A DNA stretch of 64,000 nucleotides from Lunularia cruciata. Its lineage: Eukaryota; Streptophyta; Marchantiopsida; Lunulariales; Lunulariaceae. Below the pieces are notes generated by a model. It saw only the letters and a program-made list of their open reading frames with translations, was not told where the DNA came from and did not search any database. Within the stretch, counting starts at the first letter, position 1. Each line of letters opens with the position of its first letter. This document shows, one piece after another, positions 8,866 through 62,321 of this stretch. The DNA lies in NCBI GenBank assembly GCA_948567375.1, contig OX419762.1:34477465-34541464 (forward strand), written 5' to 3'. A program made the position numbers and the translations under genes.

Positions 8866-8868
8866 TGT

Positions 8869-26842: not shown

Positions 26843-27139
26843 TAGTTCAAGTTAAGAGATGCCAAATTTGGAGCTTTGAGTTGGCAAAGGTTGGCTAAAT
26901 TTGGAGATTTGTCAAATTTAGGAAAGGTTAACTAGATTGAAGAGTGTTTGAATTGGTAAGAAGAAAAGACTTATGCTTAATTTTAGCATTTAAAGACTTT
27001 GAAGCATAAGGTTGTGGGCTAGAGAAGATACAAAGCCTATAAGGGATCAACAAGTTGGCATGAGGCTAGTTAGTTTAGAAAATATACATGATTTATAGTA
27101 ATCCTTTGGCAAAATCAGCACACCTCTCATTAGTGTATG

Positions 27140-27856
27140 TGTCACACCATTTGTAGTGTCACATCTAGATTGCTTGGACATTGGAGTTGCAGTGATAGTA
27201 GTTAGAGGTATTTCAGCAATTTCCCATAGACTCCTTTTTGATGGTCAGATTTTGTGTTTGGGTACTAACTTCACGATGAGGGCCACTGTCACTTTGGACT
27301 ATTTTCACCATCAAGTTTGCTGTCAGTGAGACCATCAGGGTTTCAAACTTAGCTTGAGTCCAAGGGTATACTTTCAAAGTGCAACTTCAAAGGGCTCATT
27401 TCTTTAATGTTGAGCCTTTGAGTTCTTGGCTATGGTGGACAGAGGCCAACAAGTGTCAACTAGATTCTCTTAGCTAGAGTGAGTGGGGCTTGATTGTAAT
27501 TAGTGCCCAATTGTTTGCAGTTTTTAAAGTGACAAATCAAGTACTGATCTGAGTTGAGTTGATTTGAGAGTTGTAAATGATATGATACATCAAAGAAGTG
27601 AAGTTAGGGGGAAATTGGGTATATAAACTATGAGTGTTGGTGGTATCTCCAAGTGCAATAGATCATTGGTACCTTGATCAAAATCCAAGGTTTTCCTAAT
27701 GTGCAAAAGCTAGTAGCTTGATGTAGATTTGACAATAAGGCAGACAATGTTGGAAGTGCTAACCAATTTTCGAGCAAAGAAGGAGCAATTTTTTAGCAAT
27801 GTTTGTGATTTTGAGCTCAAGTGGTGAAAGCAAGACCAATTTGTTACGAGATGGAT
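27140..27856 (+). repeat. Family C LTR fragment
   Basis: It starts TGTCACACCATTTGTAGTG and aligns with the 5' LTR of C1 at 30579 through GAGCCTTTGAGTTCTTGGCT, TAGTTAGAGG and CAAAGAAGTG to CAAGACCAATTTGTTA. The D LTR at 27857 abuts it. No C internal sequence is beside it. Confidence 0.8.
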
Positions 27857-29726: not shown

Positions 29727-30578
29727 ATGGGGAAACTTTTGGTTTTCTTTGGCAAGGATGGAGAAGATGTAGAGGCCTTTGTGAGAGACTTCAAGAGAGC
29801 TTGCATAGGAAACAATGAGAGGAGGAAGAATGAGTGGGCCTCATTATTACCAAATTTCTTTGAGGATGCAACACTTACATGGTATGAGTTAGAATACCAA
29901 AAAAGAGAGAAGAGAGATGGGCAAGAAGAGTCTTGAGAGAGTTTGACTTCAACACTCATTGAGAACTTTCTTCCAAATGAGAGTTATGAGAGATTGATGG
30001 ATGAGGTTACCTTTCTCAAGCAAGGAGATGGAGAGAAAGTGAGAGTCTACGTAGAAAAGTTAGAGTCCACATTTTTCATAATGTTGAGGAAGGGTAGAGA
30101 TGATGTGGAGACTACTATGATTGGCATAAGAGCTATGCTCACCAAGAATTTTGTGGGAGTGTTGAGACCACAAATTAGAAGGAAGGTGAGATATGAGAAA
30201 CTTTCTTCCAAGGTTGAAGCTATCAAGATTGCAGTTTGTATGGAGGAGAGTTTGGAAGGGGATGAGAGTGATTTGGTGGTGAAGGAGGTTGTGCATCCTC
30301 CTCACGGTTACAAGTATAGTGGAACTTTAGATACTTTGGTGACAAGGGTTGCACCACAAGTAGTAGTTGTTCCAGTTCTTGCACCTTTACCAAAGGATCC
30401 ACTTCAAACCATCACATAACAACTTGCAGATCTCAAGATCAATGTGTTGCAACTATGGGAGAAGGGAGAAGTGGATCAGAATGTAGGGAGAGGGCCTAGG
30501 AGTTATAGAAACTATCCATATAGATGAGGCTAACCAACTAACAATTTCAATGCTAGAAATTGTTTTGGTTGTGGATGA
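29727..30578 (+). mobile_element. Element E: gag fragment of an LTR retroelement (broken)
   Basis: The plus strand encodes a Retrotrans_gag-like protein. It opens with FFGKDGEDVEAFVRDFKRAC, then has ATLTWYELEYQ, then NFLPNESYERLMDEVTFLKQ, a helical acidic and basic middle, and the start of a CCHC knuckle (NCFGCG) at about 30555-30572. These are the usual features of plant Ty3/Gypsy gag. The knuckle is cut at 30579 by the first base of the C1 LTR, so C1 appears to have inserted into this gag. I could not find the rest of E on the far side. Only one or two breaks lie in the preserved part. Confidence 0.7.
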
Positions 30579-31230
30579 TGTCACACTATATGTAGTGTTG
30601 CATCTAGATTGCTCAAACATTGGAGTTCCAGTGATAATAGTTAGAGGCATTTTGGCAGTTACTTATAGACTACTTTCCGATAGTCAAATTTTGTGTTTGG
30701 GGTATTCACTTCATGGTGGAGTCTACCATCACTTGCACCATCCGCACCGTCGGGTGTGCCATCAGCGGGACCATTGGGATGAGACCTAGGTCAAAATCAG
30801 GAGTAGACCTTGGAAGTGCAGCTCCAGAGAGCTCACTTCTTTGATGTTGAGCCTTTGAGTTCTTGGCTAGAGTGGACAAAAAGCCAATGAGCATCACCTG
30901 GAGTCTCTTAGCTAGAGAAGGTGTGGGTTGACTGTAATTAGTGCTCTTTTATTGGCAAGTTATTGAGGATCAAATCAAGTATTGGTCTGAGTTCAATTGA
31001 TTTGAGTTGTAAACGATCTGATTACATCAAAGAAGTGAGTTAGGCGGAAATTGGGAGTAGGAACTACAAGTGTAAGTGGTATCTCCAAGCTTGGTGGATC
31101 ATGGTGTCTTGATCGATTAGTTCAGATTTCCCTAAGAGAGCGCTACGGAAGCACTAGCAAAATGTGGAACCAAGGAGAAGCAATTTTCAAGCAATGGTTG
31201 TGATTTTGAGTTCAAGACCAATTTGTTATG
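30579..31230 (+). repeat. 5' LTR of element C1
   Basis: It starts TGTCACACTATATGTAG and matches the LTR fragment at 27140 and the 3' LTR at 45799. The right edge is uncertain because the closest copies stay similar to about 31230 and no clear primer site follows. Confidence 0.7.
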
Positions 31231-31843
31231 AGTTGAGCTCAAAAATTGAAATTGAAGGTGGAGTTGGGAGCAGATCCTCGTGAATTGAAGATTGAATGAA
31301 ACCCATTTTTCCAATTTGGCTCGAGTGAAGAGTAAGTAGAGGATTTAGTGGTTAGCCCATGTAAGGGATTTATGTCAGATTTTATGTCAGATTTTACATC
31401 AGATTTTGTGAAGGAGTTTTGTCGGATTTTGGCGAGAAGAACATTGATTTGATCCTCGGTGATCCTTGTAGCTTAGGAAGTAGATATGTACTCCAATTAT
31501 GTCAAATGCCAAATGGTGGTAGAGTCAGTCCCGTGTTGATTTATGAGATGGAGGGTTTTTGTTTAGCATTCTTGTGATTGGACCCCCTCCATTCTCTATT
31601 TCTTGTTTGTGCACCACGTTTGTATGAGGTGCTCTAAATTTTGAGCATTGGTTCTCTGGTGTGCTCTCGGTAGTGAGACTGGAGTGATGACCAGTCAAAC
31701 TATCTTTGTTTCTCTCCGGTGAAGCAGGAAGTGATGACTTGTAGACCATGAGAATGAGTGTTGTGATGATAGGTTATAGGTTGCCCTTGGCCCTAGTGTA
31801 GTTGTCTCAATTAGAGTCACATTAATGGATAGTGTTCCGTTAG

Positions 31844-31966
31844 TTTTGGCACTTGATGATGCTTGGTTGGTGTTGGCACTTGGTGGTGCTTGGTTGGTGT
31901 TGGCACTTGGTGGTGCTTGGTTGGTGTTGGCACTTGGTAGTGCTTGGTGGTGTTGGCACTTGCGGT
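31844..31966 (+). repeat. 27-bp minisatellite in element C1
   Basis: Four units of GCTTGGTTGGTGTTGGCACT plus TGGTGGT start at 31861, 31888, 31915 and 31942, preceded by a partial unit. The period of 27 is a multiple of three. It lies in the leader before gag. Confidence 0.9.
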
Positions 31967-32049: not shown

Positions 32050-33650
32050 CCCTTCAGTACGCAGTGGGTTTACTCAAAGTGGTGCTCGGTATCAGCCTAT
32101 ATCTCAGGTCCTAGTGAGTGAGGAGATTGACTCTAAGTTGGAGTTTAACACAAGAGTTGATTCAGTTGAGAGTGCACTTGGCGTGTCTGCATTGTTGTTG
32201 TGGGACATGGATGAGATTTATGGGGCCTCCAAAGGCCCTAGGCATTACTCTAGTATAGTGGGTACCTTTGAGTTGGATGAATTCATCCAAGAGTTTGATA
32301 GTTGGTGTGATTTATAGTAGATGCGGAACCCAACTTTTTTTACACTCTTCATGGCATGGAAGGGGTTGTTTCAACACTTGGAGGGTCCACCGATGGATGA
32401 CTACCATGAGTTCAAGAGAGCTCATTTGGAGGAGATTGAGTTATGGAGACAATATTGGTCTCCAAACTATGTCTCTATCACTTCAGGCTTGGTTGCCAAG
32501 AGTAGGTTGGATGTACCCACGAGTTCTAGCTCAAGTAGTGTTGGTGGAGCTAGTGGAGGTGCACTAGCTGGAGATAGTGTTACCATGAGTGGAGGTACCA
32601 TTGCAAGAGGTGGTGTGGTATTGGGGTTTAGCCCCATGGTAGAGTTCTTCCAATGTTTGAGGCAAAACTACCAAGGAGTGCGGACCAACAAGTTGAGGAG
32701 CTTGCAAGAGTTCTAGTTGGCATACACTCGCATGAGGCGACAAATCAGTTTCACTTAGGGAGTACTGAGGCCCAAGCAATCCAGTTTTGGTATGGGATAC
32801 TAGATAGGGAGTTGCAACATAAAGTTTGTGATGTTGCATTGAGTTTGTGATGCTACGTTGTTATAGGCTACTTTGCTTACTTTGGCAGTGGTCTTTGGTT
32901 TGGGTGAGCGTATTGAGCTCAACATGGTGGAGGAAAGGGTTGTAACATCTGGATTTGGTAGGGAGACCTCATCCACAATTGTTACTTCTTCTAGAATGAA
33001 GTAGAGTGCACCATGCCCAATTGGTTTTTGAGGATATGGTGGACAACCCAGATCCTATGGAGCGAGTGGAGGGCCTACTGTAGTTAGACCATTACCTTCA
33101 TTTTTGGGTCAATAGCAGCCAATGAGTGGTAGTGTTACTTGTTGGACTTGTGGTGGACCTCACTATAGGAGAGAGTGTACTTAGGCCAGCAGACTTGATA
33201 CCTTTGGTGCATTGCAGCCAACATAGAGGCAGTGTGAGCACTGCCACAGATTTGGTCACACTAGTGATTGATGTTTTGACCTACACCCAAAGTTACGGAG
33301 TGGTAGGGCTGTTATGGCAGGTAGTAGAGGAGCTCCAATTCATAGAGGACAAGGTGGTAGAGGATCTACACCTAGTAGAGGATCTACACCTAGTAGAGGT
33401 GCAATACCTACCCTTACTTCTAATACAACTATGGCTACTCAGATTGAGCAATTGGAGCAAAGATTAGCTAGTACGACCATTGCTCAAAGGAGATCAGATT
33501 TGGGTGCTGAGGCTTCCACCTCATATGCTGGTGATAGAGATGCTTTGGAATTCATGTGTAGAGCAACTCAGGTAGATGCATCTGCAATAGTGACTAGGAG
33601 TGCAATATGTGCTCCAGAGCCTAGAGGAGCATCCATGGAGTTGGACCCAT
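32050..33650 (+). pseudogene. gag region of element C1
   Basis: Recognisable as gag by the capsid-like segment around 32330-32460 (FKRAHLEEIELWRQYW), a Ser/Gly-rich linker, and two CCHC-type knuckles: CWTCGGPHYRREC at 33140-33178 and a CEHCHRFGHTSD segment at about 33233-33280. A basic Gly/Arg/Ser tail follows, with a 21-bp direct repeat at about 33360-33400. Gag packages the element RNA and forms the particle in this family. C2 has the matching region at about 46900-48200. Broken. Confidence 0.75.
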
Positions 33651-34179
33651 AGAGAGGAGATGTTGGGAGATAGGTTAGACTTCCCTAGTCTTTCATGCTA
33701 TCTAAGGCATTGCAAACAACATCCATGGCTCCTAGACATCCCAATGCAAGTGTGGTAGGTGGTGGTGGAGTGCACAAATGACTACTTACTAGTTAGCCAC
33801 CTTTTACTACACAGACTAAGTATAGCATAATGTTGGGGGCAGCTCGGCTGATTATGCGATGCCCTTTGTTTTCAGCTAGTGACATGTTTACATTGGGAGT
33901 TGACCCCACCCCATTGTTCTGGTTGGATGCCATGCTTTGTGAGAATAGGGATGTTGCGGTTCCTACTACTAGAGTAGAGGTGGTTGGTAGTGGAGTTAAC
34001 TTGGTTGAGGAGCATGGGATCTGTTTAGCAACCAGTGGTTTATGGTAGGCAGCAACGGCTAGACTAGAGGAGTTGCCAGCTAGACCAGCCTTTGAAAGAG
34101 CACGGTTCACACTTGGTGTTGTCCTATTGGATAACCAAAAGGGGATTTTTATTTTTGGTGGGACCTTCAAGGAAGGCCT

Positions 34180-34480
34180 ATACACCATAGAGAGTCTTGT
34201 TAGACTGTGGTGCACATCTCCTTATGTTGGGGAAGGTTGTAATAGTTGGTCTAGAGTTACAAAAGGCCAATGTGGAGAGGTGTACATTTTAGATCCAGAC
34301 ATCTCTAGGTGGTGGTTCTACATAGTACATCACACATAGGGAGCTTGTTGTCCAGGTGAAGCCTGGTCATCCAATTGATAGCTTGGTAGTAAGAGCTCAT
34401 GTTATTGTGACAATAGCTGAGTCATATGATGTGCTAGTTGAGAGTGTAGTGTTATACCCTATGGGTTTCAATATTGACTA
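34180..34480 (+). pseudogene. Aspartic protease-like region of element C1
   Basis: The plus strand reads VLLDCGAHLLMLGK, which fits the active-site loop of retroviral-type aspartic proteases, then a hydrophobic segment with ESYDVLVESVVLYPMGF. It lies between gag and the methyltransferase, as expected for a Gypsy polyprotein. Recognition rests on the loop and its position. Broken. Confidence 0.55.
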
Positions 34481-34899
34481 TTGGGAGGAGACAACCTAGA
34501 CCAGGTTGGCAGTTTGGTGAGGGGTGGGTATGTCGCCTAGCAGTACGCTTCAATAGTGGCAATCTTGGCTCATTATAGTCCAAGACCATGGCAACATCAA
34601 TTTTAGCTTTCAGTGGTGCAATTACTTGGCCTGGTGACTTGTTGGAGGGGAACGCCCATGCAAAGGATACTCCAATACTAGAGGAGATCACTTGGATTTG
34701 GAGTACAAGTGGGATTGTTTCATCCACCTTGGATGTTCCATTGTGGAGTTTAAAGGAGGCATTGCACTAACATGCAGATTAGTTGGTGCAATAGGCTTGG
34801 AGTGGAGCCTTTGTACCACCAAGAGATGAGTATGAGGATGAGCCTCCAAAGTCAATTACCTTGACACCTCTGGATACTCCACTCATTGCTTAGCAATAT

Positions 34900-35515
34900 C
34901 CAATAGAGGGAGTATGTCTATTGGAGTTGTTTAGTGGGATTAGCACCAGACTAGTTGTGGTATTACAAATGGGTATACAATTACAAAGGTACTTGTATAT
35001 GTAGAGAGATGAGATAGCAAGGCAAGTCTCTCTGCATCATGTGCACACTTGGCTAATAAGTATCCGGAGTTATTATTGATGTCAGCAGTTAGAGGTAACG
35101 AAAGGGCCTTACCAGCAAACATTTCTTTACTGGTGGCGCATGATTTGGAGCAACATGGGCATGTTCACTTGGTGATTTCTGGATGGCCATGTAAGGGACA
35201 TGCACATGTTGGCCAAGGTTTGGGTCTTCAGGATCCTTATTTTGGTGTGTTTTGGGAGATATTATGGATACTACAACATCTCCAAATTCATCAATCTATT
35301 TCTCCAACTTACCTTTTGGAGAATGTTCCTTTGATGGGTGATTCTCGCACAAGAGTGGTGGCTAGTACACATCAGGTCCATTCTTGGATGAGACCTGCTG
35401 TATTGTTAGATGCAACCAGAGTAGGATCACGGGCTCATCGTCTTCGTCTTTGGTAGACAAACCCTTTACCCTAAGAAGTTCTATAGCGTGCATATGATGG
35501 GATTCAGTGACTAGA
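34900..35515 (+). pseudogene. Cytosine-5 DNA methyltransferase domain of element C1 (N-terminal part)
   Basis: Signature motifs appear in family order. LLELFSGI at 34918-34941 is the SAM-binding motif I. DEIARQVSLH follows near 34995. GWPCKGHAHVGQGLGLQD from 35181 is motif IV, containing the catalytic Cys of the PC pair. YLLENVP near 35310-35330 is motif VI (ENV). GSRAHRLRLW ends near 35453, as motif VIII does. Such enzymes add a methyl group to C5 of cytosine in DNA. The domain continues at 41727 after element B. It sits between protease and RT, so it was part of the element polyprotein and not a host gene. The spacing and the LLENVP and AHRxRLW wording recall polyproteins of volvocine algae, from memory. 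Broken. Confidence 0.8.
35511..35515 (+). repeat. Target-site duplication of element B, left
   Basis: CTAGA directly before the B 5' LTR, repeated exactly at 41727-41731 after the 3' LTR. Confidence 0.95.
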
Positions 35516-36252
35516 TGTAATACCAAGGGTTAGCCATATGATCTAGATGTGAAATTTGGTTTGGTAACATCTAGAATGATGTTATACATGATGGTCAAAA
35601 TAGATCAGATAGAAGTATCACCAAAAGAGTACTTCTACTAATAGGGCAGAAACCGAAATAGACTTGAGAACCTTAGAACCAATAGCTAGACATATGATTT
35701 AAAGGTGAGAATTGGTTTGGTAACATCTGGAAGGATGTTACACATGATGGATTAAACAGATCAGAAAGAGTTATCACCAAAAGGGGACTTCTACTAATAG
35801 AGTAGGAACCGAAATATGCCTGAAATCCTTGAAGGCAATTTCGGAGGCCTAAACGGATGAATTAGGCCTCAAAAATGTACAGATTCCCCCCCCAACGGAG
35901 GAAAGGCTGGCCTTCCCTCCCCCTGGTTTGTCTCGTCGAGAGCTTTCCAATGGTACCTTACTCATGTGATTTTGAGATTCCTACAGGAAGATTCCCTAAA
36001 AGATTCTCTCCGGTCAAAGCTCGTTTGACCAACCAGATAGGACCTAGACCAGACAGGTCACCCATCCAAGTAAGTAATCCAAGGGTGGAGCTTGCTGACA
36101 TGTCACCTATCTGTGTCCCTAATCCTATGGTGGAGCTTCCTTGGAGGAGATCCTCTTTGTCTTTATAATAAAGAGAAGGTGCTCCCTTGGGGCATCGAAT
36201 GTTGAGTGTGCAATTTGTGTTTTCTCTCTTCTCTTGTCCTCGGAGTATTACA
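35516..36252 (+). repeat. 5' LTR of element B
   Basis: Starts TGTAATACCAAGGG and ends GAGTATTACA. It contains a direct repeat of about 155 bp in its first half: GGTTTGGTAACATCT begins at 35558 and 35713. A TATA-like word (TATAATAAAG) is at about 36163. A run of eight C lies near 35886; the 3' LTR has twelve. Confidence 0.95.
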
Positions 36253-36253
36253 A

Positions 36254-36265
36254 TGGTATCAGAGC
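36254..36265 (+). promoter_or_regulatory. Primer-binding site of element B (initiator tRNA-Met)
   Basis: TGGTATCAGAGC is complementary to the 3' end of plant initiator tRNA-Met. It lies one base after the LTR and primes minus-strand synthesis in this family. Confidence 0.95.
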
Positions 36266-36459
36266 GAGTGTTCTAGTCCAAGAGAGTGGATCACCCCTCT
36301 TGGAATAGCACGAACTACTGAAACTGAGTAATTTGAGGTGGAGAACATAGAGTAATCGCTAGACTTAGGAAGGACTTTAGAGAGCGGATGGGATGGATGC
36401 GCCGGGGGGACAATTTCCCGCACCTAGCTTTCCATTCTCAAACCCATTCCACATCAAGG

Positions 36460-37480
36460 AAACATGGATCCGCAGTTGCAAGAGTTGGTGCAAGAAATGC
36501 AAGGGATGTTGAATGAATTTCGAGAGATTAAGATGACCATGGAGACATTGCAAAGTCAAGTGCAGATCCTCAGGAACGATCAAGCCATGCAAGAAGAAGA
36601 GCCGTCTCAAAACCCAGTACCTGCAACTGAAGTACTTGGAGAGGCACTCGTGCCTACGAACCCTATCAACGATGAAGCCACATTGCTACTCCGGATGAAG
36701 AAGACCTGCAACATCGAGCCTTACAAGGGGCAGCGATGGGATGGGAGTAGTGGAAAATTGGATCTCGAGAATGAATCGATATTTTCGATTGTTCTCAACA
36801 TAGATCACAGAGCATGCTGCAGGCGTGTTTGCATGTGGGTACTTGACCGATAAAGCCCTCACATGGTATGATGCTTGGGAACGATCCATGCTGGGCAGAG
36901 AGAAGGGAGGTCACATGGACAGCAATGCAAGAAGGACTGCTCAAGAATTTCCAATCGGTGGATTCTGTGCAGATGGCTCGAACCCGACTATGGGGATTGA
37001 GACAGAAGAATAGCGTACAAGAGTATGTGGAGGCATTTCTGGATCTACAAGTTGCAATTACCGACATGAGTCTAGCAAAGGCTCTCGATAATTTCAAACG
37101 AGGGTTGAAAGAGCGGATTTGCCAAGAAGTCATGGTGCAAAACCCTCGCACGGTATTTGAAGCTATTGCTTGTGCGCAGAGAATAGCCGGAGCATTAGGT
37201 GGAGGTGAAGGAGTAGTTCCACCTCAACATTATCGGGCAGAAATGCCACACATGGGTGGACTAGTACCAATGGAATTGGGCAACCTTTGATTCTGAGATC
37301 GAGGAGCACGACCGCTTCAAGGAGAGCGAGGACGGGTAGAAGAACGAAGAGATGGAGTCCCACGAGGAGAAGGGACTCAAGGAGAACAACGCCGTTGTTA
37401 CAATTGTGGCCGTATTGGGCACATATCTACCAATTGTTGCACTCATTTCCCTAGAGGCCCTCGGCCTTCGTACAGGCGAT
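36460..37480 (+). pseudogene. gag region of element B
   Basis: It begins with a Met and an amphipathic coiled coil (LQELVQEMQGMLNEFREIKM), continues with a capsid-like segment around 36830-37200 (VQEYVEAFLDLQVAITDM), and ends in a CCHC knuckle CYNCGRIGHISTNC at about 37395-37440. These are normal gag parts in order and of normal total length for a chromovirus. Broken by a few changes. Confidence 0.85.
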
Positions 37481-37639
37481 CTTTGAACAACATGGAGAGG
37501 CATATTGAAGAGGAGGAGGTGGAACCACTTTGGAAAACGAAGGTCGCCAGTAAATGTACCTCATGGCCTTACTGGCTCAATAAGGAAGCAGAGAAGCGAG
37601 GGAAGGAAGAAGAATAATGCGCAAAGATCCCGAAAGGCA

Positions 37640-37960
37640 ACCTCACAATTGATTGTCTTGAATGGAATCCTAGAAGGTAATCAAGTGAGAGTATTAATAG
37701 ATCCGGGAGCAATAGAGAATTTCTTGTCTCGCTGTGTTGCAATAAGCTTGGGAATGGATCTAGAGAGATGGAAGTGAAGAAGTAGAGTTACCAAATGGGC
37801 AAACAGAGAGGATTGAATCATTACCTAGACGGGTAACCCTCTCTGTAGGAGAATATCAGGAAGCAATTGAGTGGCGAGTGATATAGTTAGCCCGTTATGA
37901 TGCAATTTTAGGCATGCCATGGATGGAGCAGTACAACCCAATGGTGGATTGGAGGAAGAA
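37640..37960 (+). pseudogene. Protease region of element B
   Basis: The segment around 37650-37760 reads LNGILEGNQVRVLIDPGA, the place of the retroviral-type aspartic protease active-site loop. Further on, [21 protein letters not shown] near 37890-37950 fits the usual Gypsy protease end. It lies between gag and RT as expected. Confidence 0.75.
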
Positions 37961-38179
37961 AGTAGTGAGAACCCACCAATGGTCAATCATTGGGGTTAAA
38001 GAAAAATCACACAGGCAGAAACTGCCTCTATATGTCGTAGGGATGACAACTGTCTGTAGGACCGATAGATGTTTTCTGGGTCTGATAAGAGAAGTCCAGA
38101 GTGCACAACTCGCTGGACAAATTCCTGAGAAATTGAAGGATGTGGTGGATGAGTTTCAAGATGTCTTTCCCGATGATCT

Positions 38180-38900
38180 ACCCTCAAGATTACCACCTAA
38201 AAGGCGAGTAGATCACAAAATAGAGACACTCCCGGGGAAGACACCTCCTTGTAAGGCCCCATATCGCCTATCACCTCATGAGTTGGAGGAGTGTAAGACT
38301 CAAATCGAGGAGATGCTACAGAAAGGGTTCGTCCAACCTAGCGTATCACCATATGGGGCTCCTGTCTTGTTTGTGAAGAAGAAGGATGGTACAATGCGCA
38401 TGTGCATTGACTATCGGGGTCTGAATCAGCAAACAGTGAAGAACAAATACCCCTTACCTCGCATGGATGACCTGTTTGATCAACTCCATGGAGCGAGGTA
38501 CTTCACCAAACTGGACTTGCGGAGCGGTTACAATCAAATCCAAATTGTAGAGGAGGATGTGTACAAAATTGCCTTTTGAACCAAGTATGGCCACTTTGAG
38601 TACCTTGTGATGCCTTTTGGCCTCACCAATGCGCCTACCACTTTCATGAGCCTAATGAATGACATATTTCGTCCATACTTGGATAAGTCTGTTAATGTCT
38701 TCTTGGATGATATCTTAGTATATAGTAGCACGATGACAGAACACAAACAACATCTACAAGAGGTCCTCCAGATTCTAAGACAGAATCAGTTGTACGCCAA
38801 ATTCTCAAAGTGTGAGTTTGGCAAGTCTGAAGTAGACTACTTAGGGCATAGAGTAAGTGCAGAGGGCATTCAAGTATTGACAGATAAAATAGAGGTCATT
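38180..38900 (+). pseudogene. Reverse transcriptase region of element B
   Basis: Clear Ty3/Gypsy RT. It contains [55 protein letters not shown] and the catalytic box [10 protein letters not shown], then [10 protein letters not shown]-type sequence and [11 protein letters not shown]. It copies element RNA into DNA. Nearly whole in this copy. Confidence 0.9.
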
Positions 38901-39089
38901 CAAAAATGGAGTGCCCCAGAAGATCAAACTCAACTTAAGAGCTTTTTGGGGTTGACGGGATTCTATCGTAGATTTGTCAAGGACTTCTCCAAGGTTGCAC
39001 AGCCTTTAACGACACTACTTGGCAAGGGGAAGAAGTGGACATGGGGAACTGCACAAGAGTTGGCCTTTCAAGAATTGAAGGCCGCCTTG

Positions 39090-39490
39090 CTACATGCACC
39101 AATCTTGAAGTGGTATGACCCAATACGTCCAATCAAGTTGGCTACGGATGCATCAAGCGTAGCAATAGGAGCAGTCCTACAACAAGAGTGGCATGACGGA
39201 TGGCATCCAATTGCATATTTCTCTCGAAAGTTGTTACCGGCAGAGCGCAACTACCACACCATAGAACGAGAAGAGCTGGCCATCGTTCTAGCAACCAAGC
39301 ATTGGAAGCACTACCTGGGCAAGAAGGCATTTGTAGTAGAGACAGACCACAAACCTCTAGTCTATCTCGAGACACAGAAGGATCTATCTCGTCGCCAAAT
39401 TTGGTGGGTAGAGTGGCGACAATGCTTCAACATGACAATCACCTACGTGGAAGGTAAGAAGCAACTTGCAGATGCATTCACCCGCATGCC
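39090..39490 (+). pseudogene. RNase H region of element B
   Basis: Motifs in order: [60 protein letters not shown] and ADAFTR. This is the RNase H that follows RT in Gypsy elements and removes the RNA strand. Confidence 0.9.
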
Positions 39491-39639
39491 AATGGCCAAC
39501 AACTTGGCGGTAGAGGTTAAGATTAACCCTGAATTCTGGCAAGAGATTCTAGCTGTTACAAAAACTGATCCACAGATTGTAGAAGCGCGTCCAAAGGTGT
39601 CACCAGCACCCAAGGACTCACCTTTTGGGAGGACCAATT

Positions 39640-40480
39640 GTGGATCCCAAATGTCCCAGAATTACACACCACCATTCTAGCGGAATGTCATGATTTGGCC
39701 ATTGCAGCTCATGTCGGAGTGGACAAGACCTTGGAGGCAGTCAAGCGCCATTACTATTGGCCCAAGATGAGCAACGACGTGATGGACTATGTGCGTAGCT
39801 GCCTACTTTGTCAACAGAACAAAGCTTCTAATCAAGCTCCTGCAGGGCTCCTTCAACCTCTTCCCACTCCTACCCAACGTTGGGAACAAGTGAGTATGGA
39901 TCTCGTCTGTGAACTACCCAAGACCACCTCAGGGTTTGACTCCATTGTGGTCTTTGTGGACCGGCTCAGCAAAATATTTCATGTACGCCCTACCACCAAG
40001 GAGGTGATCGCTCCACAACTAGCTCAACTATACTTAGATGCAGTCTTTGCTCACCATGGCTTGTCTAGAGTACTCATCACCGATAGAGGCACCCAATTCA
40101 CTAGTTTGTTTTGGCGAACACTCTTTGGTTTCTTCAAAACCAAGTTAGTCATGTCTACAGCTTACCACCCACAAACAGATGGCCAAACAGAGCGGGCTAA
40201 TCATATGATTGAAGACATGTTACGCGGCTTCACCTTAGAAGAGCAAGAGAGGTGGGACACCCTACTACTGTTGGTGGAATTTGCTTACAACAATTCAGTG
40301 AATGCCTCCATCCAGGTCACTCCGTTCTTCCTCATGTATGGTGAGCATCCCTTCACACCTTCTAGCTTGATGAAGATCCGTCCAGTGACTACCAAGGTTG
40401 ATGCAGTCAACACATTTGTTTCTAGAATCCAACAAGGTGTGGAGAGCGCCAAGCACAGGTTACAGATTGCGCAAAATCGA
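39640..40480 (+). pseudogene. Integrase core of element B
   Basis: The HHCC zinc-binding part is visible as HDLAIAAHVGVDKTLEA and then CLLCQQNK. The catalytic core follows with SMDLVCELPK, ITDRGTQFTS and YHPQTDGQTERANH, giving the D, D and E positions. It inserts the DNA copy into the host genome. A basic C-terminal part (WLSTTNL, RKLRPRFIGPF) follows at about 40540-40620. Confidence 0.9.
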
Positions 40481-40774
40481 CAAAAGTAGTATGCTGATGC
40501 ACACCGTAGGCACATGGAGTTCAATGTTGGGGATCAAGTGTGGCTATCGACAACCAACCTCACATTAGTTGGATCTCGCAAGCTCAGACCTCGTTTTATT
40601 GGGCCTTTCTCGATTCTTCGTCGCATCGGCGCTGTGGCCTATCACCTTGAGCTACCACCACACATGAAGATCCATCCAGTGTTCCATGTCTCCCTATTAC
40701 ACAGATATGCTCCCCGATCAGGCCAAGGTACTTCCACACAGGACATTCGACCTTGTCCGACAATCATTGATGGC

Positions 40775-40930
40775 ACAGAGGAATATGAAGTGGAGCGGAT
40801 TCTCCAAAAGCGCATGCGTGGTACTCGCCATCCGCGGGTGGAATATCTAGTACAATGGAAAGGTTACCCCCTCTATGAAGCAACCTGGGAACTTGCTGCC
40901 AATTTGGCACATGCACCGGTGTTGGTGCAA
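40775..40930 (+). pseudogene. Chromodomain at integrase C terminus of element B
   Basis: EYEVERILQKR, then VEYLVQWKGYPLYEATWE, the typical chromodomain core with aromatic residues that read methylated histone tails. In chromoviruses this module is thought to steer integration to heterochromatin. It defines the clade of element B. Confidence 0.9.
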
Positions 40931-40970
40931 GCATTTGAGCAACAATTGCACAACGAGGACGTTGCGTCTT

Positions 40971-40983
40971 AAAAGGAGGGAGG
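40971..40983 (+). promoter_or_regulatory. Polypurine tract of element B
   Basis: AAAAGGAGGGAGG ends two bases before the 3' LTR and primes plus-strand synthesis in this family. Confidence 0.9.
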
Positions 40984-40985
40984 TC

Positions 40986-41726
40986 TGTAATACCAAGGGT
41001 TAGCCATATGATCTAGATGTGAAATTTGGTTTGGTAACATCTAGAATGATGTTATACATGATGGTCAAAATAGATCAGATAGAAGTATCACCAAAAGAGT
41101 ACTTCTACTAATAGGGCAGAAACCGAAATAGACTTGAGAACCTTAGAACCAATAGCTAGACATATGATTTAAAGGTGAGAATTGGTTTGGTAACATCTGG
41201 AAGGATGTTACACATGATGGATTAAACAGATCAGAAAGAGTTATCACCAAAAGGGGACTTCTACTAATAGAGTAGGAACCGAAATATGCCTGAAATCCTT
41301 GAAGGCAATTTCGGAGGCCTAAACGGATGAATTAGGCCTCAAAAATGTGCAGATTCCCCCCCCCCCCAACAGAGGAAAGGCTGGCCTTCCCTCCCCCTGG
41401 TTTGTCTCGTCGAGAGCTTTCCAACGGTACCTTACTCATGTGATTTTGAGATTCCTACAGGAAGATTCCCTAAAAGATTCCCTCCGGTCAAAGCTCGTTT
41501 GACCAACCAGATAAGACCTAGACCAGACAGGTCACCCATCCAAGTAAGTAATCCAAGGGTGGAGCTTGCTGACATGTCACCTATCTGTGTCCCTAATCCT
41601 ATGGTGGAGCTTCCTTGGAGGAGATCCTCTTTGTCTTTATAATAAAGAGAAGGTGCTCCCTTGGGGCATCGAATGTTGAGTGTGCAATTTGTGTTTTCTC
41701 TCTTCTCTTGTCCTTGGAGTATTACA
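40986..41726 (+). repeat. 3' LTR of element B
   Basis: 741 bp, nearly identical to the 5' LTR and ending GAGTATTACA. It is followed directly by CTAGA, the second copy of the target duplication. Confidence 0.95.
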
Positions 41727-42060
41727 CTAGACCACATCCTTGTTGATGATATCTTGGATTTTGGGCGGCAATCTCTAACAGTGGTAGTGGCTGATAGGTC
41801 ACCTATGGCAGTGGTGAACCTAGTTGGACAACCTAGAGCCACATTTCCCACACTCATGAGTTTCTTGGGCTCTCATGCTTTTTGAGAGGGAGGACTTGGA
41901 CTTGTTTGGGACTCACGGTTAAAGCAGTTGGTGGAGCCTAAAGTTGATGAGAGAGAGTGGGTGATAGGTTTTCACACCAGTATTACTACTGTTTTTGTAG
42001 TGTAAGAGGCATCCAGGTGTCAAGTGTTAGGTCAAGCTATGGACTTGAATTGTTTAACCT
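41727..42060 (+). pseudogene. Cytosine-5 DNA methyltransferase domain of element C1 (C-terminal part)
   Basis: Continues the domain interrupted by element B. It reads VDDILDFGRQSLTVVVADR, then VNLVGQPRATFPTLMSF and, near 41955-42050, EREWVIGF followed by LGQAMDLNCLT. The last two fit motifs IX-X of C5-methyltransferases (a GF word, then a Gly-Asn/Gln-Ala-type helix that completes the SAM pocket). Position and wording match the end expected for the part before 35515. Confidence 0.65.
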
Positions 42061-42429
42061 AGATTGTGAGCCTTAGCTTGGCAAAGCAGCATATGATGCA
42101 CTTGATAGGCATCACCACTCGGACACTTGTGAGCCCTATGCCTATCGAGACAATTCAAGCACATGTTGGGAGAAATGGACCAAGTGGACATGGTATTCTT
42201 GGGACATAGCCAATAGCTACTAGGGAGAGTGATCTACTTGGAGTCCATCTAGGTGAGCATGAGCTACTTGGATTACATCCTTGGTCCACTTGGGATGCGG
42301 CTAGAGGACGTGTGGAGCTTGTTGCTAGAGTGGAGGGAGTTTTTCACATAGACTTTAGGACCTCTAGTAGTTGGGAGTATGACACTACTGCCCCCAAGGG
42401 CATAGTGTAGCAGCCAGTCAGTACGTCTT

Positions 42430-43860
42430 CCACTCCTATGACAGTTAAAGAGGATACTTGGGAGCCAGATCTTGGACCCAAGTTTACAAGAGAGGAAAGA
42501 TGGAGAGTTTGGAGGTTCTTGAGGAGCTATACAAGTTGTTTTGCCTTCATTATGAAGGATTTGGGTGCTCTGAAAGAACGTGGTATATGGATTGAGTTGA
42601 ATAGCAATACCCCAGTTTTTCAATGTCCTTATTGCTATAATGACATGGAGAGGACATTGATTGAGAGCCAGAGTAGAGACCTTTTTGAGGCTGGTTTGGT
42701 AGAGATCTCACATGGAGAGTATGCATTAGCTACAGTGATGCCAATAAAGAAGGATATGCATGGAAACTACATAGATAGGCGGATGTGTGGAGATTATCGT
42801 CCTATCAACCAACAGACTAGGGCTGATTGGTATGCCATGCCTACACCAGAGGATGTTTTTGATGCAATTGGGCATGCAAAGGTCTTCCATACTTTGGATC
42901 TTTCAGAAGGATATCATCAGTTGCCGATCAAGGAGGAGGATAAGTCCAAGACAACATTTTGGGCTATTGATCCTCACGGCAAGGATGTGTTATATTAGTG
43001 GAGGTTCTTACAATTTGGGTTAAAGAATGCTCTTGCTGAGTTCTAGAGGATCATTGATAGGATCCTAGCTGGATTGGATTTCACTCAGTGCTATATTGAT
43101 GAAATTTTAGTCTATAGCACTATTATGGAGGAGCATGAGAGACAATTGTTGGAGGTGTTTGAGAGGTTGAGATCTCATGGACTCAAATTACAACTTGAGA
43201 AGTGTAGATTCTTCCATGAGCAGGTTGAGTATTTGGGTTACACTATCTACCCTAGAAGACTTGGTTTTTAGTATCCCAAGGTGGAGGCTATTGCACATAT
43301 TCCTCAACCTACGGATGTGAGCAGAGTGCGATCATTCCCTGGGTTGGCAAATTTCTATCCCTGCTATGTTAGAGGATTTAATGCCATTTCCAAGGCCTTG
43401 ACAAAGATGACCAAGCTTACATAAGAGTGGTCTTGGGGACATGAGCAGGAGAGGGCTTTTGTGGAGCTCAAGGAGAGGTTGACATTTGTTCCTATTTTGA
43501 GGAGACCGATCAAAGGATGATCATGTTTTGGTTCATATTGATTGGAGTATGTTGGGGCTTGGAGCAATTCTCACCCATCATGATGATGAGGGGAAGGAGT
43601 TTGTGGTGGCCTATGCTACTCGCTCCAACAATTCAGGGGAGGTGAAGTATAGTTCATATGAGGGAGAGTGTTTGGCAACAGTTTGGGCAATAGCACATTT
43701 TTTATGTTACCTATTTGGTAACCCCTTCACTCTCATCACTGATCATCAACCGCTGAAGTGGTTGATGGAGTTCAACAAGCTTCTAGTGAAGCTTGCACAA
43801 TGGGCTCTTATTTTATAGGAGTATGATTTCACGGTTGTTCATAGACCTAGAGTGGTGAAC
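42430..43860 (+). pseudogene. Reverse transcriptase and RNase H region of element C1
   Basis: RT: RRMCGDYRPINQQTRADWY, FHTLDLSEGYHQLPIKEEDK and the catalytic box YIDEILVYS near 43090-43120, then LEKCRFFHEQVEYLGY. RNase H: VHIDWSMLGLGAILTHHD near 43530-43580, YSSYEGECLATVWAI, and ITDHQPLKWLME near 43735-43770. The wording differs clearly from element B, so C belongs to another Gypsy lineage. Broken. Confidence 0.85.
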
Positions 43861-44269
43861 CGTGATGCAGATGGGTTGAGTAGAAACCCATGTCCCAACC
43901 AGCAGATCAAACTAGAGCACATTGGCATGGTGAGATAAATGAGGAGATGGTGTTAGGTTGGTATGCATTGGCCCTTTTGTGTATATTTTCTGAGGCTTTG
44001 GTGGTATCTCTCTCAATGCATACAAGAGGAGTTATTGAGGTCATAGATCCAAAGAGTGAAGATATTGGTACATTTCAGCAAGACATTCATGGTGATGTCT
44101 TAGTGATGGACTATCTTTGCACTGGTTCTGTGGGTGGCATAGTTGGGGCCAAGGAAAGAGATGACGTCCTTGAGCAAACCAGACAATTCAGATTGGAGGG
44201 CAGACACTTTTTGCGTGTATGGGAGGATAGTAGAGTGCGAGTAGTACCACTTCCATCTCAAAGACCACA

Positions 44270-45120
44270 ATTGGTCTGTCATGCTTGTGAGGAGCTAGGA
44301 GATTTTAGAGTAAAGCATACATGTAGCTTACTCCATAGTCATTATTGGTGGTGTGGTATGCAAACTTAGGTACAATAGTTTGTTGCCAAATGTGGGGTTT
44401 GTGATTGAGTTAGAGCATCATTCAATGCTTCTATGCCATAATTCCACCCATTACCTACCATGGGATTGGGTTACCGTTAGAGTTTGGACTTCATTGGACC
44501 TTTACCGCTGACTGTGAGACATCATCGATATGTTTTGGTGATGGTGGAGCACTTCTCCAATTGGATTGAGTTGGTGGCACTTCTTGACAAGTCTAATGAA
44601 GGGACAACTTACTCATTCTTGGATCAAGTTCTTAGTCATTTTGGTGCACCAGCTGAGATTTTGGCTGATCAGGGTATAGAATTCTTGGTGGAGTTTCAAG
44701 TTTTGTGTGACAAGGCTTTGATTGATCATCGTACTACATCCCGAGATCACCTTAAGGCAGATGGCTTAGCAAAGAGAGTGGTTCAGACGGTGAAGAAAGG
44801 ATTGCAAAAGTGTGTTTTGTTGAGAGGCCACTTGGGAGATTGGGATCTCCAATTACCTTGGTTGGCCATGGGCTATCAATTCAGCCGGCAAGCCTCCTTA
44901 GCATCCTTCTTTCCTTACTTCCTACTCTATGGACAAGATCCAGATTTACCTACAACCATTTGTAGAGATGCTACTATAGTTTTGGACTTGGATGATCCAC
45001 ATGTATGGATGAACGCATGTTCTTGGTGGGTAGAGATCTTTTGGAGAGTGATGCAGATGGCCTTTGAGAACTTGACAATTGCTCAGCATAGAGATATCTT
45101 ACGCTATGCTACCATTTGAG
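44270..45120 (+). pseudogene. Integrase region of element C1
   Basis: A zinc-binding part with CHACEELGDF and LLHSHYWWCGMQ (about 44278-44366) is followed by the catalytic core: MDFIGPLPLTVRHHRYVLV, APAEILADQGIEF and a segment ending DGLAKRVVQTVKKGLQKC. The core is shorter-worded than in element B. It is followed not by a chromodomain but by an RVCEV / DHVRNCAPCYLPNIDG linker and a PHD finger. Broken. Confidence 0.8.
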
Positions 45121-45380
45121 GAGGTTATAGACCCTCAATCCATCAATTTTATCTAGGGAACTATGTACATCTACAATAGATAACACCGATGACACTTGAT
45201 GTTTCAATAGGCCATATTATCTTGAGAGTGTGTGAGGTTTTTCTATTTGGAGTTCTTGTGTTGGAAGGACGTGATGGTGTTGTTTGGAAGGATCATGTGC
45301 GTAATTGTGCACCATGCTACCTCCCAAACATTGATGGTACTATGGACCCAAGCTTGGCAATTGTATGTGTAGGCTTGAGG

Positions 45381-45515
45381 TGTATGTTATGTGGCTCTTT
45401 TGATGGAGCTACTACTATGTTAGTGTGTGATAATTGTTCAAGAGGATGGCATATGGCATGTATGACTCCTTCCCTCACAATGGTTCCTTAGGGACAGTGG
45501 TTATGTTCTAGATGT
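45381..45515 (+). pseudogene. PHD finger after integrase of element C1
   Basis: The plus strand reads CMLCGSFDGATTMLVCDNC, then SRGWHMACMTPSL, a short gap, and QWLCSRC. Spacing gives Cys4-His-Cys3 with GWH and WLC, the signature of a PHD zinc finger. PHD fingers bind histone H3 tails, methylated or not. At the C terminus of an integrase it would take the place a chromodomain holds in element B. Confidence 0.8.
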
Positions 45516-45798: not shown

Positions 45799-46226
45799 TT
45801 CATGCCATTTGTAGTGTTGCATCTAGATTGCTGACACTAGAGTTGCAGTGATAGTAGTTAGAGGTATTTTAGCAATTTCCTTTAGACTACTTTCCGACAA
45901 TCAAATTTTTTGTTTGGGATATTGACTTCACGGTGAGGCCCACCGTCACTTTGCACCATTTGCACCATTGAGTGTGTCGTCAGTAAGACCATTAGGATTT
46001 CAGACCTAGCTCAAGTCCAAGGGTATATTTTCAAAGTGCAACTCCAAAGAGCTCACTCCTCTGATGTTGAGCCTTTGAGTTCTTGGCTATGGTGGATAGA
46101 GGCCATTGAGTGTCACTTGGATTCTTTTAGCTAAAGTGGGTGTGGCTTGATTGTAATTAGTGCTTAGTTGTTGGCAGTTTATAGAATGATAGATCAAGTA
46201 CTGATTTGAGTTGAGTTGATTTGAGA
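45799..46226 (+). repeat. 3' LTR of element C1 (partial)
   Basis: Matches the 5' LTR from about its first bases (CATTTGTAGTGTTGCATC) to GATTTGAG at 46226. It then changes to sequence resembling the stretch before the LTR (compare 45722-45798 with 46232-46311, sharing GTGTATGAT, CAATGTATG and CGCACGAC). Confidence 0.7.
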
Positions 46227-48345
46227 TTATGTATGACTTATATGTGAGTTATGCTTTTGTAGTGTATGATGTTGACAACAATGTATGTTGTATAACAATG
46301 TATGTACGCACGACATATGTAATAGAATTTGAACCTTGGATTTTTGGTTCTTAGATTGGTACCATAGCCAACTTATCCATCCTCACTTGTTGTCTTAAAA
46401 GTTGGTGGACTCCTATCTATACATATGTTGCTTTAGCTAGAAAGGACATTTGATCTCATTCTTGGTGATCTTGGCAATAGAAGAGTAGATAGATGTTACT
46501 CTTATGTCAAATGCCCAATGGTAATAGTGTTAATTTAATTGGACTTGTGACATAGAGGATTCTTATTAAGACTTCTTGTGGTTAGACCCCATCCATTCTC
46601 TACTTCCTATTTGTGCATCATGTTTATGTGAGATGCCTTGATGTTTAGAGTAATGGTGCTCTAGTGTGCTCCCAATAATGAAACTTGAGTAATGACCAAT
46701 CAAACTATATATGTTTTTCTCCAATGAGGTAGAAAGTGATGACATGCAAATTATAAGAGTCCATGTTACAGTGCAAAGATATAGGTTTCCATTTCTCTTA
46801 GTGTAGTTATCATGGTTAAAGTTACATTAGTAGGTAGTGTTTGGATATTGATAGCACTTGGGTATGGTTCTTGGTGGTTAGGATTGCAATTTGAGTACAT
46901 AGTCATAATAATGTTCACCAAGGATTCCAAAGGAAATTTTACTACAATATGCAATGGGTAAACATGGCATAGCACTCAATATTAGCTTGTATCTCAAGTC
47001 TCAATGAAAGAAGAGATTGATTTTAATTTGAAGTTTGACACAAGACTTGATTCAATTGAGAGTGCACATGGTGTGTCTGCACCATTGTTCTGGACATAGA
47101 CACAATTTATAGAGCCTCTTAAGGTCCCAAGTGCTACTTTGATATAGTGTGTACTATTGAGTTAGATAATTTCATCTAGGAGTTTGATAGTTGGTATGAT
47201 CTATAGTAGATATGGAACCCAAATTTTTTCATACCTTTCATGATATGGAAGTGTTGTCTCAACACTTGGGGAGTACACCAATTGATGAATATCATGAGTT
47301 CTAAGGAGATTAAACTATAGAAATATTATTGATCTCAAAACTACATCTCCATCACTTTAGGTTTGATTTCTAGAGGTATATCAACAATACCCGCAAGTTC
47401 TACCTCTAGTAGCATTGGTGTATCCAAAGGAGATGCACTAGTTAGAGATAATGTTACTCCAAGTGGAGGTATAATTGCATGAGGAGGTGTACTATTAGGG
47501 TTAAGGTGAAGTTCTTCTACTACTTGAAGCAAAACTACCAAGGAGTTTGGATTGCAAGAGTTCCAGCAAGACATACACTTGTATAAGATGGTTGATTAGT
47601 TTCACTCAAAGAGTTACTAAAGCCCAAGTAGTCCAATTCAAGTATGGGATATTAGACAAAGAGTTATAACATAGAGTACGTGATGTTATGTTGTTGCAAG
47701 CTATGTCACCAACTTTGTTGATGATCTTTGGTTTAGCAGAGCATATTAAGCTCAACGTGGTGGAAGAAAGAGTGATGACATCTAGATTTGGTAAAAAGAA
47801 CTCATCCATAGTTATATTTATTCTAGAGCGCAATAGAGTGCACCACACCATGTTTGCTTTCAAGCATCAGTGAACAACCTCAATCTTATGGAGCAAGTGG
47901 AGGGCCTAGTGCACCTAGACCCTTACCCTCGTTTTTTGCTTACCAATAGCCAATGAGTCATGGTGTTGCTTGTTGGGCTTGTGGTGGACCTCAATACAAA
48001 AGAGAGTGCAACCCAAGGTAGTGAGCATGGTATCTTTAGTGCCCCTTAGCTGGCCAAAAGATAGTGTGATCCTTGCCATAGATTTAGTCATTATTGTGAC
48101 TAATAGATGCTTTGACTTACACTTGGAGTTGCAAAGTGGTAAGATGGCTATGACAAGTCATAGAGGAGTCCCGAGTCATGTAGGATAAGGTGGTAGAGAT
48201 GGTGGTAGAGGATTTGCACTTTACTAGTGTTTTGGTTGGTTGCCACACTTTGTGAGAGTAGAGATGATACGGTTCTTACTTTTAGAGTAGAGGTAGTTGA
48301 TGGTGGAGCCTACTTGGTTGAGGAGCATGGGATGTATTTGGCCAC

Positions 48346-52302: not shown

Positions 52303-52637
52303 GTGGCTTATGGCAAGCAACAATTGCTAGGTTGGAGAAGTTACCTACAATACCTATATTTAAGTAAGTTAGGTTTACACTTAGAGTTGTCCTATTTAAC
52401 AATTCCAAATGTAATACCACAACAATAGAGAGATGAGACTATTAGACTAGTCTCTCTACATCATGTGGCATACTTGGCTTATTGATATATAGATTTATTA
52501 TCAATATCAATAGTCAAGGATGACTAGAAGACCCAACCATCAAACATTGCCTTGTTGGGAGTGTAGGATTTGGAGAAATATGATACCATTCATCTGGTGA
52601 TTTTTGGATGGCCATGTCAAGGACATACCCATGCTAT
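52303..52637 (+). pseudogene. Element C2 coding remnant with methyltransferase motif IV
   Basis: The plus strand resumes the C1 text after the pogo element (SGLWQATIARLEKLP, compare 34037-34075). It then jumps ahead to the methyltransferase domain and reads GWPCQ at 52606-52620, the catalytic-loop motif IV. This second copy keeps the canonical PCQ wording, independent support that the C1 domain is a cytosine-5 methyltransferase. Confidence 0.7.
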
Positions 52638-53372
52638 TGTTATACTAATAGTAAGATATATTATCTAGAGGTGAAAATTGACTAACTAACAGCTTTTCAG
52701 ATGTTAGTTATAATGGGCTAGGTAGATCAAATATAGGTGTCAATGCTAGAATACTTTTACTAGTAGAGCAAGAGCTAAAAATAACCTGAAAATATAATAC
52801 CAATAGCTAGACATATTGTCTAGAGGTGAAAATTGGCTTAGTAATATCTAGAAAGATGTTATAGATAATCGACTAAGTAGATCAGGTAGAGGCATCACCA
52901 AGAGAGTACTTCTACTATAAGGTAGGAGCCAAAAAATATTTGAAAGCTTCAATCAATTTTGGAGGCCTAAATGAATGAATTAGGCTTAAAAAATGTGCAA
53001 ATTCCCTCCTTCCCAAGTAATGTAAAGCTAGCCTTCCTTCACTCCTTGTTTGTCTCATTAAGAGCTTTCTAATGGTACCTCACCCATGTTATTTTGATAT
53101 TCCTAAAGATACCCTCCAATCAAAGTTTGTTTGACCAACCAAGTAGGACCAAAACCAACATGTCATCAATGCATGCAACTAATCTAATGGTAGAGCTCTT
53201 TGCCAAGTCACATATCCATGTATTTTGATCCAAGAGTGGAGCTTCCTTTGAGAGAATCCTCTTTGCTATATAATAAAGTCAAGGTGCTCCTTGGAGCATC
53301 AAGTATTGAATGTGAAGCTTTTGTTTCTTGTCTTGTGTTTCTCTTAAGGTCTCTTGTCCTTGGAATATAACA
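52638..53372 (+). repeat. Solo LTR of the element B family in C2
   Basis: 735 bp from TGTTATACTAATAG to TATAACA. It aligns throughout with the B LTRs, including the first-half duplication (AGGTGAAAATTG twice), GGAGGCCTAAA, TTTGTCTCAT and GAATCCTCTTTGCTATATAATAAAG. It is considerably diverged, hence older than element B. It lies inside the methyltransferase region of C2. Five-base flanks do not match clearly. Confidence 0.85.
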
Positions 53373-55330: not shown

Positions 55331-55339
55331 TTGAGAGCT

Positions 55340-59850: not shown

Positions 59851-59859
59851 AGCAAGGAG

Positions 59860-61240: not shown

Positions 61241-61249
61241 AAGAGAAAC

Positions 61250-62308: not shown

Positions 62309-62309
62309 T

Positions 62310-62321
62310 TGGTATCAGAGC
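62310..62321 (+). promoter_or_regulatory. Primer-binding site of family A copy 3
   Basis: TGGTATCAGAGC, complementary to the 3' end of initiator tRNA-Met, one base after the LTR. Confidence 0.95.

Follow-up and report, generated by a model that had tools for sequence, protein, structure and literature searches.

A decayed Ty3/Gypsy retrotransposon with an embedded C5 DNA methyltransferase in a probable liverwort sequence

Retrotransposon polyproteins that include a DNA methyltransferase exist in volvocine algae. The most closely comparable system in print is KnitGypsy-Dnmt3, a Dnmt3 carried by a Gypsy element of the charophyte alga Klebsormidium nitens, which displays conserved residues and purifying selection (Ka/Ks <0.2); DIRS and long interspersed nuclear element (LINE) retrotransposons of dinoflagellates also carry DNA methyltransferases (DNMTs), and methylation of complementary DNA (cDNA) is proposed by the authors for the DIRS elements (de Mendoza et al., 2018; PMC5890265). 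The subject herein is C1, an element on the + strand of a 64,000 nt stretch of contig OX419762.1 (positions 34,477,465 to 34,541,464; assembly GCA_948567375.1, filed under Lunularia cruciata), the whole of which is referred to as the window. Sequence comparison confirms that C1 is a decayed Ty3/Gypsy retrotransposon in which a C5 methyltransferase lies between protease and reverse transcriptase (RT). An earlier, sequence-only reading of this DNA mentioned the capture of such enzymes by retrotransposons in dinoflagellates and a charophyte alga, which is indeed published, and regarded the element as a candidate for an undescribed system; in this it went too far, as the kind is already known from Klebsormidium (PMC5890265).

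By its predicted gene content, the C1 family is a land-plant example of this published Gypsy–Dnmt3 kind. As in the published description of KnitGypsy-Dnmt3, which is the basis of the comparison rather than its sequence, C1 is a Gypsy element of the green lineage and, like its intact relative L001, has an unrearranged, probably Dnmt3-type methyltransferase in the Pol polyprotein. Unlike KnitGypsy-Dnmt3, C1 very probably has a land plant as its host; C1 and L001 harbour a PHD finger after the integrase, a term that appears nowhere in the main text of PMC5890265; and C1 is flanked by direct repeats resembling long terminal repeats (LTRs), whereas a figure legend in that paper gives a DIRS-like repeat structure. 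SymbioDIRS-Dnmt3 and SymbioLINE-Dnmt likewise unite a retrotransposon with a C5 methyltransferase, which is of Dnmt3 type in the DIRS case, but they are DIRS and LINE rather than Gypsy elements, and their authors consider the enzymes to have been captured independently (PMC5890265). DIRS elements with Dam-like methyltransferases similarly unite a retrotransposon with a DNA methylase, yet the enzyme is described as adenine-type and structurally unrelated, and the element as having a tyrosine recombinase. Chromoviruses, as presented by Neumann et al. (2019; PMC6317226), share with C1 a chromatin-binding module after the Gypsy integrase, although this is a chromodomain, not a PHD finger, and comes with no methyltransferase. 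There is a precedent for a PHD finger placed behind a Gypsy-type integrase, because Ginger1 elements have such an integrase with extra C-terminal domains and one family, Ginger1-9_HM, is listed with a PHD; unlike C1, however, these are described as animal DNA transposons with no methyltransferase (PMC2836005).

According to PMC6338049, methylase transposons are missing from land plants such as tracheophytes; the sequence-only reading expected a land-plant example to be unusual. A bryophyte example contradicts PMC6338049 as regards land plants as a whole, but leaves its claim on tracheophytes untouched. No report of a land-plant methylase retrotransposon was found among the titles and abstract openings listed in the literature surveyed (in two of the surveys, 20 of 165 and 15 of 242 matching papers), with preprints and most subscription journals outside it. 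The puzzle of why an element that is a target of methylation should itself carry a methylase extends to land plants.

C1 possesses, in order, gag, zinc knuckle, protease, methyltransferase, RT, RNase H, integrase and PHD finger (Table 1), in domain-by-domain agreement with L001, and the Ty3/Gypsy order of gag, protease, RT, RNase H and integrase is evident from profiles and from the L001 comparison. L001 (CADCWO010000201.1) is a public contig of 9285 bases, filed under a cyanobacterial metagenome-assembled genome (MAG), which was obtained by running a profile of C1 integrase relatives against prokaryote genomes, where 22 stretches matched and one encoded a relative. In predicted gene content it is a eukaryotic Gypsy element. 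Its first frame (1162 aa, open at the contig start) contains zinc knuckles discerned by eye, a protease (PF13650 Asp_protease_2, 7.8e-4, below the curated cut-off) and the methyltransferase (PF00145, 6.8e-12, with 4.8e-13 also given), and directly downstream of this a second frame (1047 aa) encodes RT, RNase H, integrase and PHD finger (4.3e-10). The ends of the contig overlap by 127 bases, which suggests that the assembly was closed into a circle. Because L001 has the methyltransferase in an open frame with the protease, ahead of RT, the enzyme is a built-in part of the element; the earlier proposal that C1 is a Ty3/Gypsy element in which a C5 methyltransferase is embedded is upheld, the order of C1 being that of L001.

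The gag of C1 is assigned from its position, from zinc knuckles seen by eye and from its match to L001 (score 76, with 11 controls ≤39), no Pfam gag match being obtained on 32321-32716. LTR-like direct repeats with approximate ends flank the element. Both C1 and C2, a second copy described below, are dead; aligned to L001, the N-terminal part of the C1 methyltransferase has one stop and one frameshift, and the C-terminal part three stops.

As had been noted from the letters, the motifs of the C1 enzyme are all present in C5-methyltransferase order, with LLELFSGI (34894-35001) followed by GWPCKG, LLENVP and AHRLRLW (35013-35453), and then by VIGF and LGQAMD (41886-42059); these we take to be motifs I-IV-VI-VIII-X. 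On the 147 aa piece at 35013-35456, PF00145 matches with E=3.1e-4, its 20.7 bits falling just short of the curated 22-bit cut-off, and NCBIfam dcm with E=1.1e-3 (18.7 bits, far below the cut-off of that model), and the remaining short pieces gave no Pfam match when searched singly. In the profile search that had been suggested for each segment separately, the region 34900-35515 thus gave a match just under the cut-off and the other short pieces none, such that profile evidence alone is borderline. Another fold for the 147 aa piece was rejected, as no other family was matched in Pfam (E≤1) or NCBIfam (E≤10).

Direct comparisons are stronger. A frameshift-tolerant alignment of 34880-35515 with human DNMT3A scores 96, whereas 120 dinucleotide shuffles reach 45 at most, and the scores with M.HhaI (48) and a DRM2 fragment (58) each exceed all 120 shuffles. 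Against the L001 enzyme, the part of C1 before the nested element B (described below) aligns with residues 1-183 at 77/182 identities (42 %), and the part after it with residues 207-322 at 55/116 identities (47 %), with none of 100 shuffles as high in either case. Chance resemblance to a methyltransferase is ruled out by these DNMT3A and L001 shuffle comparisons, and the C-terminal part is real because its match to L001 lies beyond all 100 shuffles. The signatures PC, ENV and RxR, which we take to be the catalytic residues of a C5 methyltransferase, are kept in L001 and still present in decayed C1.

Other comparisons were less informative. When set against DNMT3A, the C1 part that follows element B was unremarkable, as were two C2 pieces, with 21, 14 and 58 of 120 shuffles, respectively, scoring as high; the same three pieces were unremarkable against M.HhaI, and one C2 piece scored 34 with the DRM2 fragment, above all 120 shuffles (maximum 32). 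A PDB search with the C1 piece returned nothing at E≤1 and HaeIII alone (2.1) at E≤10, and a protein search with the 147 aa piece returned nothing at E≤10 among 25 candidates, the lengths of which (~81-257 aa) leave full-length relatives outside. No relative was found in scans of viral contigs, no match was found in Rfam, and structure prediction was uninformative, with pLDDT values of 34.7 for the C1 piece and 31.8 for the L001 methyltransferase.

The two parts of the C1 enzyme are separated by element B, a younger nested Gypsy element. Its LTRs (35516-36252 and 40986-41726) are 98.65 % identical and CTAGA stands on either side (35511-35515 and 41727-41731), and it is for these reasons a clean insertion; RVT_1 matches at 1.4e-9 on 37887-38579. 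A putative chromodomain, discerned by eye on reading 40490-40972, lends the element a chromovirus-like look. C2 is a second, deleted copy of the C1 family that begins past the downstream repeat and holds methyltransferase remnants. A segment at 52580-52620 had previously been read as methyltransferase, and 52459-52635 does match the L001 enzyme (20/59 identities, 0/100 shuffles as high); its continuation at 53518-53688 matches weakly (18/57, 1/100 shuffles as high), and nothing was found in C2 that corresponds to the C1 stretch bearing motif I. As C2 is continuous at the place where C1 has element B, it supports the view that the two C1 halves belong together. Two further features occur around the C2 remnants: a Tc5-type transposase DNA-binding domain (4.7e-7) at 48845-49180, past the gag region and ahead of the methyltransferase remnant, and an inverted pair (51006-52041 and 55340-56383, 75 % over about 1 kb) that flanks this remnant.

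Identity between C1 and L001 is 24 % for gag, 43 % for protease, 42 and 47 % for the two methyltransferase parts, 52 % for RT, 62 % for RNase H, 59 % for integrase and 56 % for the PHD stretch. The stretch preceding the methyltransferase scores 38, with 11 controls reaching up to 33, and that following it 26, with controls up to 35. With an identity near that of protease and RT, and low-scoring flanks, the methyltransferase stands out as a conserved block, as the other enzymes do, and its conservation at the protein level points to constraint.

The C1 integrase has 285 relatives at E≤1e-5; among the 120 listed, three carry organism names, all of them bryophyte. An integrase tree of 38 rows, in which 35 of the 120 listed relatives accompany C1, L001 and element B, places C1 in a 12-row clade (99/97) alongside Calypogeia fissa, Marchantia polymorpha, Sphagnum fallax and eight other rows, and L001 in a separate 6-row clade (100/99). 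Since the methyltransferase sits at the same place in members of two integrase clades, a single capture before the C1 and L001 lineages parted is the simplest reading, and as members of both clades share the enzyme at near-RT conservation, it can be argued to have been useful to the element rather than a passing accident. The PHD finger after the integrase is also recurrent, with PF00628 present in 7 of the 120 listed relatives, including the Sphagnum protein. Relatives of this finger in the PDB include CHD4, UHRF1, KDM5A/B, PHF21A and AIRE, many of which presumably read the unmodified H3 tail.

A liverwort host is very probable from these comparisons. For the RT/RNase H piece of element B, 7379 relatives were found among 8000 scored candidates; among the 120 listed, the top three identities (83, 75 and 74 %) belong to Riccia sorocarpa, with matches spanning 74, 58 and 49 % of the query, and the other 117 lie at 43-56 %. 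Two unrelated elements of the window, B and (through its integrase) C1, thereby both point to bryophytes, which supports the land-plant setting that the sequence-only reading had assumed. The Marchantia, Calypogeia and Sphagnum relatives are known here by their integrase-bearing proteins; Marchantia, in which one of these named relatives exists, is a laboratory model.

As to the type of methyltransferase, the L001 enzyme ranks DNMT3A highest in the PDB (2.4e-8), then DNMT3B, followed by HaeIII (1.1e-5), HhaI (1.7e-5), DRM2 (0.0097) and DNMT2 (1.3), with DNMT1 absent from the 50 matches at E≤10. Its alignment with DNMT3A is collinear from motif I as far as the LLGRS stretch, and for this reason its motif order is unrearranged, unlike that of DRM. 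The earlier suggestion of placing the domain in a tree was answered in part. In a 14-row tree, the set for which was without plant or algal Dnmt3 and included 7 of 448 phage records, C1 and L001 pair at 100/99, but several placements of the pair are compatible with the data; joining DNMT3 and DRM2 costs least in likelihood (0.92), as compared with 5.55 for the phage enzymes and 4.12 for HhaI/DNMT1/DNMT2. Several of the seven phage records inspected (L002-L008) appear Dnmt3-like in layout by eye.

Taken together, the most probable account is of a bryophyte Gypsy family with a Dnmt3-type methyltransferase and a PHD finger, the enzyme having likely been captured once and kept because it was useful through methylation of cDNA. 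The capture would have preceded the parting of the C1 and L001 lineages, and the enzyme would have been retained because it helped the element. As part of the polyprotein, it would be packaged with RT, and would most likely methylate freshly made cDNA within the particle or pre-integration complex; a new copy might in this way enter the genome already bearing the methylation mark of the host. The PHD finger may steer the integrase to chromatin according to histone H3 state; reader and writer in one element could then be hypothesized to form a system that both chooses and marks its site. C1 itself would afterwards have lost coding capacity and been split by element B. A wider scenario, in which one ancient capture founded a green-lineage Gypsy clade with PHD reader and Dnmt3-type writer that survives in bryophytes, its copies self-marking and histone-guided, is possible but doubtful.

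Several observations weigh against the account preferred above. The published Klebsormidium domain failed to methylate DNA in yeast, a result its authors consider inconclusive (PMC5890265). In the methyltransferase tree, the approximately unbiased (AU) test rejects no placement (DNMT3 with DRM2, p 0.249; phage, 0.094; HhaI/DNMT1/DNMT2 with one phage enzyme, 0.079), and in BLAST a Pelagibacter phage enzyme outscores DNMT3A against the L001 methyltransferase (70.9 vs 54.7 bits). In the integrase tree, the four rows labelled land plant (C1 plus the three named proteins) do not cluster beyond what shuffled labels give, as rows without an organism name are interspersed. Between C1 and C2 there is no sign of coding constraint, with a dN/dS of 0.41 in the true frame and 0.36 and 0.86 in the others, and no excess of changes at third codon positions (p=0.61), which lengthy decay after insertion could mask. 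Finally, the CpG observed/expected ratio of 0.19-0.20 in C1 is not specific to it, with values of 0.08 (1-25000), 0.26 (54000-64000) and 0.51 (element B) elsewhere. CpG depletion was on this account set aside as a trace of self-methylation, every measured stretch being CpG-poor; a heavily methylated, CpG-depleted host genome is conceivable.

Alternative explanations bear on different parts of this account. With regard to the donor, the enzyme may derive from a Dnmt3-like enzyme of a phage or bacterium rather than from a host Dnmt3, as the higher BLAST score of the Pelagibacter enzyme, the 448 phage records that match the L001 methyltransferase at E≤1e-3 and a PCQG..DDPRS stretch that looks phage-like by eye would allow; given that DNMT3A/B are the top PDB matches and that the DNMT3 with DRM2 placement is the cheapest, with none rejected, we regard this origin as tentative and somewhat unlikely. 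It is similarly conceivable that the enzyme does not serve to methylate the DNA of the element, but works through nucleic-acid binding, has RNA as its substrate, or curbs copy number in a manner that spares the host. The yeast result for the Klebsormidium domain favours such a role, and de Mendoza et al. discuss RNA methylation (for LINE elements) and host benefit, but the SymbioDIRS-Dnmt3 enzymes do methylate CG in yeast (PMC5890265). The persistence of PC, ENV and RxR in both L001 and decayed C1 also speaks against another role, which is accordingly judged unlikely.

The remaining alternatives concern the setting, and have less in their favour. That the DNA stems from an alga or a contaminated assembly rather than a land plant is suggested by the scarcity of organism names (3 of the 120 listed integrase relatives) and by the cyanobacterial MAG in which L001 lies; as Riccia sorocarpa proteins lead the listed matches of element B, and the three named integrase relatives share a supported clade with C1, this seems very unlikely. 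A fragment of a host gene, or a separate insertion beside Gypsy pieces, could be imagined in a window that is a nest of elements and in which the C1 enzyme is split by element B. Such an origin is extremely improbable, however, as the L001 enzyme shares an open frame with the protease, between it and RT, the C1 pieces cover L001 residues 1-183 and 207-322, and C2 carries the same methyltransferase at 71.6 % DNA identity; a host-gene fragment adjoining the element is ruled out by L001 and C2.

Table 1. Features of C1, C2 and element B in the window, with the evidence for each (identities to L001 are at the protein level)
Feature	Position	Strand	Evidence
C1 upstream LTR-like repeat	30571..31867 (approximate limits)	+	30588-31006 79 % to 45807-46225; 31428-31867 72 % to 46432-46875
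C1 gag remnant	32096..32581	+	24 %/154 residues to L001 frame at 8582-9158; repeated in C2
C1 zinc-knuckle region	33116..33304	+	CWTCGGPHYRREC by eye; 12/24 identities to L001 at 33233-33304
C1 protease remnant	34049..34524	+	43 %/155 residues to L001
C1 methyltransferase, N-terminal part (motifs I, IV, VI, VIII)	34909..35453	+	PF00145, L001 and DNMT3A comparisons
Element B, younger nested Gypsy element splitting the C1 methyltransferase	35516..41726	+	LTRs, target duplication, RVT_1
C1 methyltransferase, C-terminal part (VIGF, LGQAMD)	41742..42089	+	47 %/116 residues to L001 methyltransferase
C1 reverse transcriptase remnant	42453..43289	+	52 %/279 residues to L001; weak RVT_1 2.5e-3 on 42411-42998
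C1 RNase H	43428..43860	+	62 %/144 residues to L001; RT_RNaseH 2.2e-27 on 43501-43818
C1 integrase	44241..45083	+	59 %/281 residues to L001; rve 2.6e-9 on 44481-45119
C1 post-integrase stretch ending in PHD finger	45081..45515	+	PHD 2.7e-7 on 45180-45491; 56 %/144 residues to L001
LTR-like repeat downstream of C1, followed by C2 gag region	45805..46875	+	45807-46225 79 % to 30588-31006; 46432-46875 72 % to 31428-31867
C2 gag and adjoining region	46980..48345 (gag region 46980-48198)	+	70.5 % to 32090-33362; 82 % to 33915-34032
C2 methyltransferase remnant with motif IV	52426..52637	+	71.6 % DNA identity to C1; 52459-52635 20/59 to L001 methyltransferase, 0/100 shuffles
LTR-like insertion in C2, kin to element B LTR	52638..53372	+	71.7 % to 40986-41726
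C2 methyltransferase remnant crossing the site of element B in C1	53397..53690	+	68 % to 35232-35513; flank by eye

The whole window is a nest of plant retroelements, and other members of it lie beyond the features listed. At 27133-27679, within a repeat cluster at 25-28.5 kb, the C1 family has one more LTR-like copy, of which the segment 27147-27569 is 84 % identical to 45805-46226. Upstream of C1, 29937-30419 displays a weak Retrotrans_gag match (0.018, below the cut-off) that probably derives from another element. Another repeat family is represented at 10615-11474, 23260-24622 and 62605-63962, the copies of which are 68-73 % identical in pairwise comparison and contain gag- and protease-like frames by eye.

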